DNA of 64,000 nt from Krasilnikovozyma curviuscula (lineage: Eukaryota > Basidiomycota > Tremellomycetes > Cystofilobasidiales > Mrakiaceae): contig MVAQ01000005.1 of the NCBI GenBank assembly GCA_014825775.1, positions 1-64,000 of the forward strand, given 5' to 3'. The translations under genes and the position numbers were made by a program. The notes beneath the pieces were generated by a model that worked only from the letters and a program-made list of their open reading frames with translations, had not been told where the DNA came from and ran no database searches. Of this stretch, positions 4,833-10,172 are shown one piece after another (position 1 is the first letter of the stretch; each line of letters opens with the position of its first letter).

Positions 4833-7399
4833 ATGGCGTCTCTTCATCAACATCGGTCCTCTATTTCGGAGAAGATTTTGAAGCAAGGGATGCCTGCCCC
4901 AGCCAGGCAGAACACGGTGGGAATACTGAGGCCAAATTATTGGTCTTGGATACTACAAACTGTTGCTCTTCTTATCATCGCTCACATCTTCGTGACAACA
5001 TTCCCTGGGTGGACCACTGATGACCCGCTTGCTCAAAACACCAAATCACGGAAAGTGCCTGATCGAAGTCATCTGCTGCATCTACAACCCCAAGTCATTA
5101 GCAAACAAGCACCAACCAAAACGAAGACTGTAGTTGTGACTCAGACAGCCATCGTCTCACTGCCTCAACTACAGCAGCCGATGCTCAACTTCGAGTTCCT
5201 CTACCCGGAACTCTCGATGACTCCACAGATACCAGAAACCGCCTGTAACGCTCATAACAGAGAAGGTATATCTTCTTAATTTAAGTAGCTCCTTATTTAG
5301 GGTGGTGATGTATTGACGAATCTTTATAGTTCTGCATAGATTTTTCACCTGCATGTCAACACAAACTTGTTCGGAGAGTCGACAAAAGTTTGTTGTGTTT
5401 GAGCATGAGAACTTCTGCGAATACTTGAGAGGACATAGATCTGGCGAGAATATTTGGTGAGTAAGCAGTGTTCTCGTTCCTCAGCAATGGGGCTGACCGT
5501 GCGATGATTCTGTTGGTTACTAGGGCGCACTCCATGTAAGCTGCTCTAGCGTTGCCAATGATGTTGTCTTTTCTAATCGCGTTCATTATTGTCCACTAGA
5601 ATGACGGCTCTGGAAGAGCTTGACGTGAATTTCCTTTTCGCAAGAGATGTAGCAGAAGTCGGTATGTGGAATGTTTCTCAGATCTTCCCCACAGACTTCA
5701 CTTGACCTCTTCTGTATTATGTTTTCAGGAGCCTTCTGGAGAATGGTGAGTACTAGATTGAGACTGATATTTTTTGTATATCGATAATGTCAGTAACGGT
5801 ACTGACGTTTTCTTGAATCGAAGCTCGGTACCAAGATCAAGTTTGTGGTTAGCAAAGAAGAGAAAATCCATCCGTGTTTCAAGGATCGACATTGTACCAA
5901 ATCTCCAGCAAACCCAGTAAGGTAACTTTGTTGATTGTTTATTGAGTGTCACTAATACGGTTTCATTTTTTGTGGGACAGGACGGAATCCCAATCTGGCT
6001 GTGAGTGTCAACGATGCTTAGTTCAAAAAGCTCATGAATTAAAACCTTCTCCGTCATAGATTTACCTTTTTTGACTTTTGGGGGCACACCAACCCTGTGT
6101 TTGGAAAAGAGTGGATCTTGACCCGTGAGTAAACGGTCATCTGGCGTGAAACAATAAAGCCGCTGACAATGAAGAACAACGACAGCCTACGACTACAAAG
6201 GCTCAGGAACCTCTTACGTAGGTTACTCAGTGGAAAAACACTGTAAAGATTTCCCAGTAAGTAGTCACCGATTCATAGTCATCCACTTTGACCTGACGTT
6301 CCACGTATTTAAAGATGAAAAGTCCAGAAACACGGGCAAAGCGCGCCTATCTTTTGGCCAAAACAAGTCACGTGAATAAATTCATCCTCCATTCTGTGTC
6401 CTCACTACTAACCTGAGGTAATTATGATCACAGTACTTCTGGGAAGATAACTTTAAATACAACACCGATACTTTTAAGAGAGCGAAGGAGGAGCTTGGAA
6501 TCGAGTTCATCGCCGCTTACAATACTGAAAAGGAGGAACCGGATCTTGAGGGAATAACCAGGCTTGGAAATGGGAAACAGCTCACAGAGAAAGAGTTCTA
6601 CGCAGAAATCTCAAATTCAATCGCGCTAGTTGGAGTCGGTCAGTACTTGTCGCATCCTCCTGTCATCGCCTAGGCTGACACTTTCAACTTCTGCGTCCCC
6701 AGGAAATCCTCTTAGCTCTCCCTCACCGTACTATGCTCTCTGTAAGTAGATGTGTACTGCAATTCAGAATATTCTCGCAACCACTGACGTTGTCCCCAAT
6801 ATGTTTTTTCAGGTCTTGGTAGGTTGCTCAGGGCCTTGATGAATCAGTTGCGCTGAGTCTAATGAATTTGTTCTCTTGGCTCTTCTTCAATTATCATATT
6901 AATTTGGGTAACTGACTTCCGTAGGGGTATGTGGTTGCTTACTCAATCCTCACTCCCAATGACGATGCTGACAGATTGACTCTCTTAGATACCATTTTTG
7001 AACCCGACCGTGAAATATGGTGAGGATGAGAAAGGAAATAAGATTCCAGTGGAGTCTCAACACGATCCTGCCGGTATTCTGGGAGCTCCTTATGTATACA
7101 ACCCCGAGAGGAAGAATGACGACGATTTCATTGCGGCTCTTCGCGCAGCGATGGAAAATCCTCTTCCAGACAGGTACATTGCACCTGAAATGTCTGCCCA
7201 GGCGATGAGAGACCGTGTCTCGGCGCTTGTGGACCGAGATTGGAAGGCCCTCGCTGAAACGGCGAAACAGAATTTGAATGGAAAGTACGATGGGGTCGTA
7301 AGTATTAGACCGTTGACAGTGCAATTATTCAATTTGCTAGCTGATACTCAAGATGCTAACACCCGTCCTTTCCGATATCTTCAGGAGTACGAGCTGTAG
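4833..7399 (+). CDS. Golgi type II glycosyltransferase, GT18-like (alpha-1,6-mannosylglycoprotein GlcNAc-transferase fold)
   Basis: A 510-residue model needs 16 exons: 4833-5265, 5330-5456, 5524-5535, 5600-5661, 5729-5745, 5824-5916, 5981-6000, 6060-6124, 6186-6256, 6315-6371, 6434-6638, 6703-6741, 6813-6818, 6925-6926, 6989-7297 and 7385-7399. A short cytosolic tail is followed by a membrane anchor (WILQTVALLIIAHIFVTTF), then a lumenal domain. Family landmarks in order are FFTCMSTQ, MTALEELDVNFLFARD, HPCFKDRHC, DGIPIW, FDFWGHTNP, SYVGYSVE, SIALVGVGNPLSSPSPYYAL, CLGIPFLNP and GAPYVYN, which match fungal GT18-domain proteins. The acceptor in fungi is not well defined. Several exons are micro-exons (2, 6, 12, 17 and 20 nt). 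Each is flanked by canonical splice sites, and I know of no other way to keep the conserved frame. The next gene, MBP1, converges on it. Confidence 0.85.
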
Positions 7400-7580: not shown

Positions 7581-10172
7581 TCACATGCCCTGCGAAAGCA
7601 AGCGACCGTCAGCAGGCGTGTCATCGGGGCGCGATAAATTGGAAACTCACCTGAAGAGCCTCTTCGACAAAGGAATCAACCTCTTCTGGGGTGACACCAC
7701 CACAGGCTGCTGCCAAGATCCTGCGGTACTTAGCAACTTTTTCGGACGCGCCCTTTTGAGTTTGGAGCTGAACCAGTTGATCCATCTTGGTCTTCCTGGT
7801 GGACGAGCTGAGGGAAATTTGTTTCCGTATTTGGGCAATTTCAGACTCTGCTGATGTTGCTGGCATGGAGTGGAGTCGGACCAAATCTGGAGAGCCAGTG
7901 CCCGTCATCTTCCATGTCGTCTCCTCTTTCGCCAGATCTGCCTTCCAGTTGATCCAACCACTCTTGAATGATCCCTCTATCTTCCTTCGTAGCTGGACCT
8001 CTTGTTCGGACAAGATAGCCTTCTTCTCGTCCAGGGTGTCAACATGAGATTGGAGATCGGCGACCGTTCTCTTACTCTCGCTGACCTCAACCTCAATATT
8101 GTTGAGCAGCGCATTGGCTTGCACAAGATCACGTTCTTTGGCGTGGAGCTCTGCGTCGAATGATTTGGCTAGAGAAGCGAGGAGTGAAGCCATATCGGTG
8201 GTGCATCGCCCTCCTGCGCGCTGTGCTGCAGGAGAGTGGTATATCTGGTGGGCACCCAAGATGTTGGAGGAAGAAGGGACACCGTTGGCAGAAGTATTGT
8301 TGGAAGTGCTGGCGTGATGGAAGAGTGACGCGGAGAGGCTGCCATTGTTGTATCCGCCGCCTGCTCCATTGACGAGAGGGGAGGACCTAAATCTCTCATC
8401 TTCGAGAATGTAGTCTTCAGCTGTCTTCCCATCTCTGTTGGCTAACTTGGGGTCCGCGCCATGGTCCAGCAAGGCTTTGACTAGCCTCTTCGACCTGGCT
8501 CGTGCAGCTAGCGTCAACGCCGTCTCTCCCTCCTCGTCCTGGAAGTTGATCACATCTGCTAGCTCAGAGGGATAGTCTGAGAGACGGGTGAGGATGGTTT
8601 CCATGTAGTAACGAGCGGCGTGTGTTTTGCCCTTGGATAAAGCGACGTCGGCGATATGGTGAAAAACTGTTCGATTCGAGCGATCGATGTTGAGTGTTGA
8701 GCGGTGAAGAAGTTCATAAAGTTCTGGGAACTTTCGAACGTCGTAGTTGTTGGAGAACATAACGCTTCTCATCAGAGCCGTTTGTTCTGCAGCATTGACT
8801 CGGAAGATGTCGGCACCAGCGCTGAGGAGGAGCTTGACGACTCTGATTCGACCCATAGCACAGGCCCAGTGAAGAGCTGTATGGCCATCGTCGTCGATCT
8901 GAACGTTAGGGTCAAAGTCAGCCGGCGGTGAGATAAGGATGGCCGGGATTTGGGATGTTTCTGAGATGAAGTAATCAAGGATCATATCGCCATAACGCTC
9001 TGGTCCATCAGACAGGCCGTTCCCAGGATCGAGGAGTTTTCTGCCATGAGATGAATGTCTTGGCCTGGATCCGGATGGAATGTAACCCTCTCTGAACTTC
9101 CTCTTCTTCCCGTTGACCGAATCGCCATCCGAGCCGTCCTCCGACGCACCAATGGGTGAAGGGGTTCTTGAACTCGAAGACATATGCGATGGGGAGGCAG
9201 TCATTGATTCGTCGTCGCCAGAAAGACCAATGGAAGCCACTTCTATGTCTGAACTACCATCACCGAGAGCAACAGTGTTGATGACAGCCTGAGCACTCTG
9301 CGCAGCTGATGGACCTTCCGCCTTGACCTGAACAGATTTGCTCGCCTTGGGTGGAGCTTTTGTCGTTGGGACTGAGGCAGCAGCTGTTTCGATGGGTTGT
9401 TTTTTGGGTCGAGGGGGTGCTGTGAGATGTTTGGGTGCAAGAGGTGGTGAATCTGCTGTTGGGACATAGTCGATAATTGGACGCATGAGAGCTTCAACAT
9501 TGTATTGTCTAGAAAGTGCGAGCCCTCTCTCGATTGGAACCCAGGTACCTTGAAATGACCAACAGCAATCGCGCGCGCGGAAAAAATGGCAAGAGGATGA
9601 GCAAACTAGCCCCACACCCCCTACAAGCAGATGCGAATTGGGTAATATGCTCACCTTGGTACTTTCCGTACCCTCCTTGAACCTTCTCGTGCTCTCCCTT
9701 TTGAACCTCTCTTTCCAATACTCTGGTTCTCTGTGGCTTGTCGAATCCGGCCACCTTCAGGATTTGGGTTGCGTTCAGCCAAGAATCAGAACGACGTCTC
9801 ATGACAGCTACCGTTTTGCAGATCCTAAAAATGGCAGAATGAAGCGTGAGGTGAAGCCCATATACATGACAAAAGCGGAAGGACGACGAAAGGCAAGCCA
9901 GCAGTGGAACGTACATTTCGTACACTCTGACGATATCACACAAAGCCAAAAAGATATGGTCAATATCCAGCTCTGCTATTCTTATACACTGAAGCATAGT
10001 GTACTCACGGGACACCTGAATAGGTTGCCTGATGAGTGGGCAGCGAAAAGATACAGGCGTGGAGAGGACGTCAATGAAGACCCGAGGTAAAGCGACTGAT
10101 GCAGAAGAAACGCACCTTGAAGATCTGAGTGCCATCTGGAGCCAATGCTGGAGCTTTGTTCTTCGATGACAT
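7581..10172 (-). CDS. MBP1: MBF-type cell-cycle transcription factor: KilA-N/APSES DNA-binding domain plus ankyrin repeats
   Basis: Six exons read on the minus strand: 10172-10116, 10028-10009, 9926-9915, 9824-9655, 9548-7651 and 7589-7581, 721 residues. The N-terminus is an APSES domain: [60 protein letters not shown]. Two or more ankyrin repeats follow, near [14 protein letters not shown] and [12 protein letters not shown], then a coiled-coil region rich in Glu and Lys. This is the Mbp1/Swi4 architecture; these factors control G1/S genes through MCB elements (ACGCGT) with Swi6. The small second and third exons (20 and 12 nt) encode the core of the DNA-binding domain. The last exon adds only Gly-Met-stop after a 61-nt intron with a CTGAC branch; reading through instead would give a tail seven residues longer. 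Confidence 0.9.

Follow-up and report, generated by a model that had tools for sequence, protein, structure and literature searches.

Plants have a constitutive single-nucleotide exon in APC11 (PMC4674806), which confirms what the initial annotation of this locus had stated, and APC11 and VPS55 are both treated in a further study, where the term ‘2-nt’ is absent (PMC8831610). Evidence for the APC11 exon comes from cDNA and from reporter constructs, it is conserved between species, and its authors favour sequential, intron-defined removal of the neighbouring introns combined with recursive splicing (PMC4674806). In fungal nuclear genes, the smallest exons of bglA measure 5 bp in Sirobasidium magnum and 6 bp in Rhodotorula minuta, with introns averaging about 60–80 nt (PMC9142197), P450 genes of Phanerochaete chrysosporium include 6 bp exons (PMC1184071), and an annotation table for Thielavia terrestris gives a ‘shortest exon’ of 3 bp, an unverified statistic (PMC8176577). 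Trichoderma Xlr2 also carries a small exon, described in a 2024 paper according to which fission yeast had been the only fungus with experimentally tested microexons (PMC11121469). A search of the open-licence literature returned no fungal nuclear exon under 3 nt, which is weak evidence of absence.

Mitochondria provide shorter examples. In Ophiostoma adjuncti, a single A forms a ‘mini-exon’ that separates two group II introns of rnl, and the authors discuss the insertion of a second intron beside an earlier one (PMC12308204). Placozoan cox1 contains a 1-bp exon, in a report that cites a lichen-fungus mitochondrial study for earlier ultra-short exons (PMC5436844). In stwintrons, one intron is born within an existing one, and the two adjacent introns undergo consecutive intron-defined excisions; the internal intron sits inside a splice signal of the external one, with no exonic base between them (PMC5639578). 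Recursive splice sites, or ratchet points, are zero-length and read AG/GT. They are reported to be enriched in long introns (PMC13149111).

The locus described here belongs to a GT18-like gene in the window, a 64,000-nt stretch of contig MVAQ01000005.1 of Krasilnikovozyma curviuscula. Very probably, three canonical introns in a row leave a predicted 6-nt exon, GTCTTG, followed by a predicted 2-nt exon, GG. The fuller reading, a constitutive 2-nt coding exon beside a 6-nt exon that came about through intron gain 2 nt off an old intron, in a lineage extremely rich in introns, appears likely. The 2-nt exon would be smaller than any fungal nuclear exon found in print, those being of at least 3 bp. 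It resembles the APC11 exon in being a frame-required exon of 1–3 nt between GT-AG introns, and differs in being predicted, 2 nt long, fungal, adjacent to a 6-nt exon and absent from the paralogues. With bglA it shares tiny exons and introns of similar size. The Ophiostoma and cox1 introns likewise lie next to each other, 1 nt apart, but they are mitochondrial, and those of Ophiostoma are of the self-splicing group II type, located in an rRNA gene and inferred by folding, whereas the introns in the window are spliceosomal and interrupt a protein-coding gene. The initial annotation knew of no fungal precedent, which holds for nuclear exons under 3 nt as far as we found, but not for the 1-nt mitochondrial exon of Ophiostoma adjuncti (PMC12308204). 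The acceptor and the new donor nearly abut (TAG/GG/GTATGT), and the proposed term ‘near-zero-length recursive splice site’ serves well as an analogy; membership in that class is rejected, as 2 nt are retained and needed for the frame, and the window has short introns and a coding 2-nt remainder. A stwintron was likewise rejected: both introns have a complete GT...AG, GG is kept, and removing the introns without GG breaks the frame. What is notable for an exon below 3 nt is that this predicted one is nuclear, fungal, in tandem with a 6-nt exon, and of readable origin.

In our gene model, the intron-dense GT18-like gene occupies positions 4833–7399 of the plus strand, with 16 exons, 15 introns, and 510 codons. 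By the Pfam cut-off, its product is a GT18 (MGAT5-related) glycosyltransferase of predicted activity: a 491-aa version of the protein, lacking exon 6315–6371, matches PF15024 (glycosyltransferase family 18) with 35.6 bits, compared with a curated cut-off of 28. The homologue P0002 matches human MGAT5 chains (best E 5.4e-06). The parts of the model are as follows, all on the plus strand.

4833–5265, 5330–5456, 5524–5535 (12 nt), 5600–5661 and 5729–5745 (17 nt): upstream exons of the gene model
5824–5916, 5981–6000 (20 nt), 6060–6124, 6186–6256, 6315–6371 and 6434–6638: upstream exons of the gene model, continued
6703–6741: exon 12, 39 nt, ending in phase 1 with the T of a Cys codon
6742–6812: intron a, 71 nt, GTAAGT...TTTTTTCAG, with a CTGAC branch motif; donor at the 89th and acceptor at the 90th percentile
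6813–6818: predicted 6-nt exon GTCTTG, phase 1 to phase 1, from route enumeration and spliced alignment
6819–6924: intron b, 106 nt, GTAGGT...CCGTAG, phase 1 in Gly codon 403
6925–6926: predicted 2-nt exon GG, completing the Gly codon G/GG, from routes, spliced alignment, shuffles and frame
6927–6988: intron c, 62 nt, GTATGT...CTCTTAG, phase 0
6989–7297: exon 15, 309 nt, beginning with IPFLNP, from the gene model, with codon-position constraint like that upstream
7385–7399: last exon, ending EYEL-stop, from our own model and outside the coverage of the homologue alignments

The introns from 5457 onward were recovered with the homologues P0001–P0003 as queries, and P0004 deviates at 6305–6433. 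The model is least secure at its 5' end, because P0001 alone reaches the first intron and adds an intron at 5055–5177 inside exon 1. The 57-nt exon at 6315–6371 (MKSPETRAKRAYLLAKTSH) was revealed by homologue alignment; it has an AAG acceptor, and a quick gene model merges its flanking introns into one 177-nt intron. The genome is a draft assembly of 22.4 Mb in 387 contigs. The gene is neighboured on the minus strand (7621–9756) by an Mbp1-like ankyrin/APSES-type transcription factor, for which the best named match, among the best 120 of 1244 matches, is from Mrakia frigida (54% identity over 97%), followed by Botryobasidium and then Phaffia; this one protein suggests that the genome probably belongs to kin of the Cystofilobasidiales.

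The sequence, coordinates, both exons and the intron lengths of 106 and 62 nt are as initially annotated. Exon 12 ends at the junction GCTCTCT/GTAAGT (6741/6742), the 6-nt exon sits in TTTCAG/GTCTTG/GTAGGT, and the 2-nt exon in CCGTAG/GG/GTATGT, after which CTTAG/ATACCATTT opens exon 15 at 6989. All three introns are canonical and fall inside 247 bases; the two beside GG each have their own donor, acceptor and branch motif. By position weight matrix (PWM), donors 6742, 6819 and 6927 outscore every other GT in 6735–6990, and acceptors 6812, 6924 and 6988 rank first, fourth and third among the AGs in 6760–6990. Introns b and c score under the family median, with donors at the 35th and 18th and acceptors at the 30th and 32nd percentile. 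The length of 62 nt is typical of the family introns (median 69, 10th–90th percentile 60–88, n=142), and the A of the CTGAC motif of intron c is 18 nt from the intron end. The CTGAC motif previously pointed out in the 106-nt intron is present, but its A is just 10 nt from the end, under the family's 2.5th percentile (12.5 nt), and TTAAT at 23 nt is an alternative branch motif.

The predicted exons of 6 and 2 nt spell T-GT CTT G-GG, or Cys-Leu-Gly, between YYAL and IPFLNP. The 2-nt exon is frame-critical: leaving it out alone brings a stop at codon 414, and leaving out both exons, one at codon 412. Skipping the 6-nt exon keeps the frame, with W in place of CLG (YYAL-W-IPFLNP) and the normal stop, and the earlier statement that skipping either exon breaks the frame is thus right for the 2-nt exon and wrong for the 6-nt exon. 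Gly is present at the motif in all seven outside homologues and the full CLG in five, the exceptions being P0005 (NAG) and P0007 (CQG). Among 15 paralogues, Cys is found in all, Gly in 14 (C232 has Ser), and the full CLG in seven. CLGIPFLNP was originally taken as the family motif; the constant of the family, judged from these alignments, is C-x-G rather than C-L-G. Human MGAT5 places ANG-CAFLNP in the same columns when aligned via P0002, Gly against Gly. An insertion between the third motif residue and the Pro two positions on was found in none of the 22 sequences (seven outside homologues and 15 paralogues). Given this conservation in homologues, paralogues and the MGAT5 columns, there is strong reason to expect 8 nt coding C-L-G between YYAL and IPFLNP.

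Routes from donor 6742 to acceptor 6988 were enumerated with GT/GC-AG introns of at least 40 nt and at most two internal exons. Fifteen stay open to the normal stop, and the route with the 6-nt and 2-nt exons is the only one that puts CLG directly before IPFLNP; it is the best among those enumerated. A purpose-written protein-to-genome spliced aligner was allowed to place introns, gaps and frameshifts freely. With simple scoring, introns a, b and c were chosen with all four outside homologues as queries (P0001 from Exidia, P0002, P0003 from Coprinellus and P0004 from Ephemerocybe, the last three mutually close). They were chosen again, 4 of 4, with PWM scoring, the matrices being trained on 142 family introns that the same aligner had produced, with a, b and c left out and nine introns outside 50–120 nt (43–48 or 141–192 nt) dropped. 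The three paralogue proteins tried (C59a, C59b and C172) give identical junctions, though they are less independent queries, their models having been built with the window protein. When the 2-nt exon was disallowed, the score fell by 20.5 with each of the seven queries under simple scoring, where a frameshift was then required, and by 21.6 with each of the four under PWM scoring, where the aligner turned to a GC-AG intron that adds RLLR. The consecutive 6-nt and 2-nt exons of the initial annotation are thus supported by the best route, by four of four homologues, and by the position of intron b in paralogues. No near-identical protein was found: the first search gave six matches (top match 31%, highest 33% identity), a 173-aa piece used as query gave one distant protein (39% identity), and no relative was confirmed among 127 pattern matches in bacterial/archaeal contigs and five in viral contigs.

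The role of chance was assessed with 1000 dinucleotide-preserving shuffles of 6825–6980, with a segment of P0001 as the query under both scorings. With simple scoring, the exact 2-nt route appeared in 115 of 1000 shuffles and a frameshift-free route with some small exon in 477; with PWM scoring, the 2-nt route appeared in 186. A 2-nt rescue is therefore common by chance, and a frame-restoring AG-NN-GT somewhere in a 170-nt stretch is weak evidence on its own. No shuffle in either test came up to the total score of the real sequence, the margins being narrow, 2.0 (best shuffle 82.5, observed 84.5, simple) and 0.4 (91.99 and 92.41, PWM).

Four other readings of the region were weighed against the 6-nt and 2-nt exons. 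The gene could be a broken allele with a frame-shifted product, spliced through a single intron at 6819–6988, or the assembly could carry a 2-base error, the 2-nt exon being illusory in either case. Such illusions have some basis in the 12–19% of shuffled interiors that offered a 2-nt rescue and in the draft state of the 387-contig assembly, yet the remaining gene model stays in frame, constraint by codon position is similar downstream and upstream, the intron would measure 170 nt and exceed the 142 family introns (a set limited to 50–120 nt), a base error would not yield two well-spaced introns with branch motifs, and the score was matched by 0 of 1000 shuffles; we regard this reading as highly unlikely, if the least so of the four. 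Slightly less probable again is a 20-nt exon at 6813–6832 (GTCTTGGTAGGTTGCTCAGG) followed by one GC-AG intron at 6833–6988. It was the PWM aligner's top choice once the 2-nt exon was forbidden, and it retains C-L-G in a product (ALCLG-RLLR-IPFLNP) that is open to the normal stop. GC donors follow a GCAAGT-like consensus, from which GCCTTG is far removed; moreover, the 156-nt intron would exceed all 142 training introns (limited to 50–120 nt), the four residues between Gly and Pro have no counterpart in seven outside homologues or 15 paralogues, the score is 21.6 lower, and the conserved donor position of intron b would go unused.

Skipping of the 6-nt exon in most or some transcripts, through an intron at 6742–6924 that keeps GG and replaces C-L-G with W, would use canonical sites and preserve the frame. 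The price would be the nearly constant Cys and Gly of the family, in a stretch that aligns with MGAT5, and an intron of 183 nt, and the 2-nt exon would be used anyway; this reading is slightly less probable still than the two just discussed. An 8-nt exon, GTCTTGGT, with a single AG-AG intron at 6821–6988 would encode an identical protein and restore CLGIPFLNP exactly, but has neither a GT nor a GC donor (PWM −19.7), and we give it almost no chance. That GT-AG introns make up the whole family set of 142 owes something to how the aligner and filter were built, and is of little weight against an AG-AG intron.

Other tiny exons are predicted in the family. Four paralogues have a predicted 6-nt exon at one and the same position, with the sequences ATCTGT, GTCGAT, ATCTAT and GTCGAT, at the following places.

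L007, 486–491: predicted 6-nt exon
L008 (reverse complement), 596–601: predicted 6-nt exon
L015, 171–176: predicted 6-nt exon
L023, 1211–1216: predicted 6-nt exon

This predicted paralogue exon is better supported by comparison than the 2-nt exon, and its presence in four genes suggests that the spliceosome copes with tiny exons. The paralogue C59b has a predicted 7-nt exon, TAATCCG (L021, reverse complement 2077–2083), which is part of a conserved YNP and lies between introns of 78 and 60 nt. In C172 (L006, reverse complement, about 714–853), splice scoring determines whether a 4-nt exon with a 48-nt intron or 14 nt is obtained. Several tiny ‘exons’ (two of 5 nt at the C-terminus of C188, 5 nt in C183, 4 nt in C172 and 3 nt in C373) were rejected as aligner artefacts because they change or vanish with the scoring, and the C384 model requires a frameshift under simple scoring.

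The genome contains at least 15 further GT18-like paralogues, found by similarity to the window protein; the Pfam model alone, applied exon by exon, found three. The expansion is distributed over contigs C59, C66, C70, C172, C183, C188, C232, C260, C338, C343, C373 and C384 (loci L002–L023). Intron sets differ greatly among the paralogues (5 to 13 introns modelled, some models being partial), and for 11 of the window gene's 15 introns, one or more of the 15 paralogues has an intron at an identical codon and phase. The introns at 144.1 and 506.0, near the ends, have no counterpart, nor do introns a and c, whose positions are found in none of the 15 paralogues, so the microexons are not conserved among them. 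The position of intron b is identical in C59a, C59b and C70, and an intron of C260 lies 1 nt away; these positions lend independent support to the predicted intron b. GN-[VT]-P comes directly after intron b in the genes of C59 and C70, whereas the window gene continues with GG, intron c, and then ATACCA.

From this comparison we infer that intron b is old, that intron c would have been gained 2 nt past the acceptor of b, and that intron a would have been gained 6 nt before its donor. The arrangement would be explained most simply if c had been gained 2 nt beyond an old intron; loss of a and c from the paralogues is possible and would need more steps. The segment 6742–6988 matches only itself in the genome at E up to 10, in a search that passes over simple repeats and very common words, and an introner origin was rejected. 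Likeness among a, b, c and chosen family introns was also set aside: the best three pairs (z 3.6–3.85) were judged chance among many pairs, and b versus c is absent from the eight best intron pairs listed. A tree of residues 280–500 places the window gene with C59a and C59b at a node of low support (0.22), on a short branch (0.34) unlike that of a decaying copy. Identities at the second and third codon positions, given as pos2/pos3 upstream and then downstream of the microexons, are 0.68/0.36 and 0.73/0.32 with C59b, 0.72/0.34 and 0.70/0.23 with C59a, 0.71/0.35 and 0.62/0.28 with C172, and 0.65/0.32 and 0.66/0.40 with C66m. Identities are thus alike on either side of the microexons, and the gene gives no impression of decay.

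As to how the 6-nt and 2-nt exons would be spliced in the cell, we infer that each intron is recognized across itself, by intron definition, and that the introns are removed one by one; the predicted tiny exons of the family argue for such recognition across short introns and sequential removal. Simultaneous binding on the two sides of the GG exon is presumably impossible: upstream of donor 6927, the G of the acceptor AG is among the bases with which U1 would pair. The trinucleotide at −3 to −1 of this donor is GGG whether or not intron b is still present, and either order of removal is therefore chemically workable. The 62-nt intron c would usually leave first, somewhat more probably than the reverse, so that GG heads an ordinary 311-nt exon, with b removed afterwards; the recursive order, with b first, would pass through the intermediate GTCTTGGG-GTATGT.

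Cystofilobasidiales have the most introns per gene among the fungi compared in one study, 7.65 on average (PMC5103461), a setting in which two introns can end up 2 nt apart. A tool that sets a minimum exon length would annotate the GT18-like gene as broken, and if the 2-nt exon is real, more such exons would hide as ‘frameshifts’ or gene-model errors in genomes like those of the Cystofilobasidiales. The locus would offer a compact natural substrate, three introns of 62–106 nt, for testing sequential intron-defined splicing, and its paralogues would document the birth of such an exon through gain of an intron next to an older one. Fungi would then join the organisms with spliceosomal exons below 3 nt, and exon length under intron definition would have no lower bound but chemistry.
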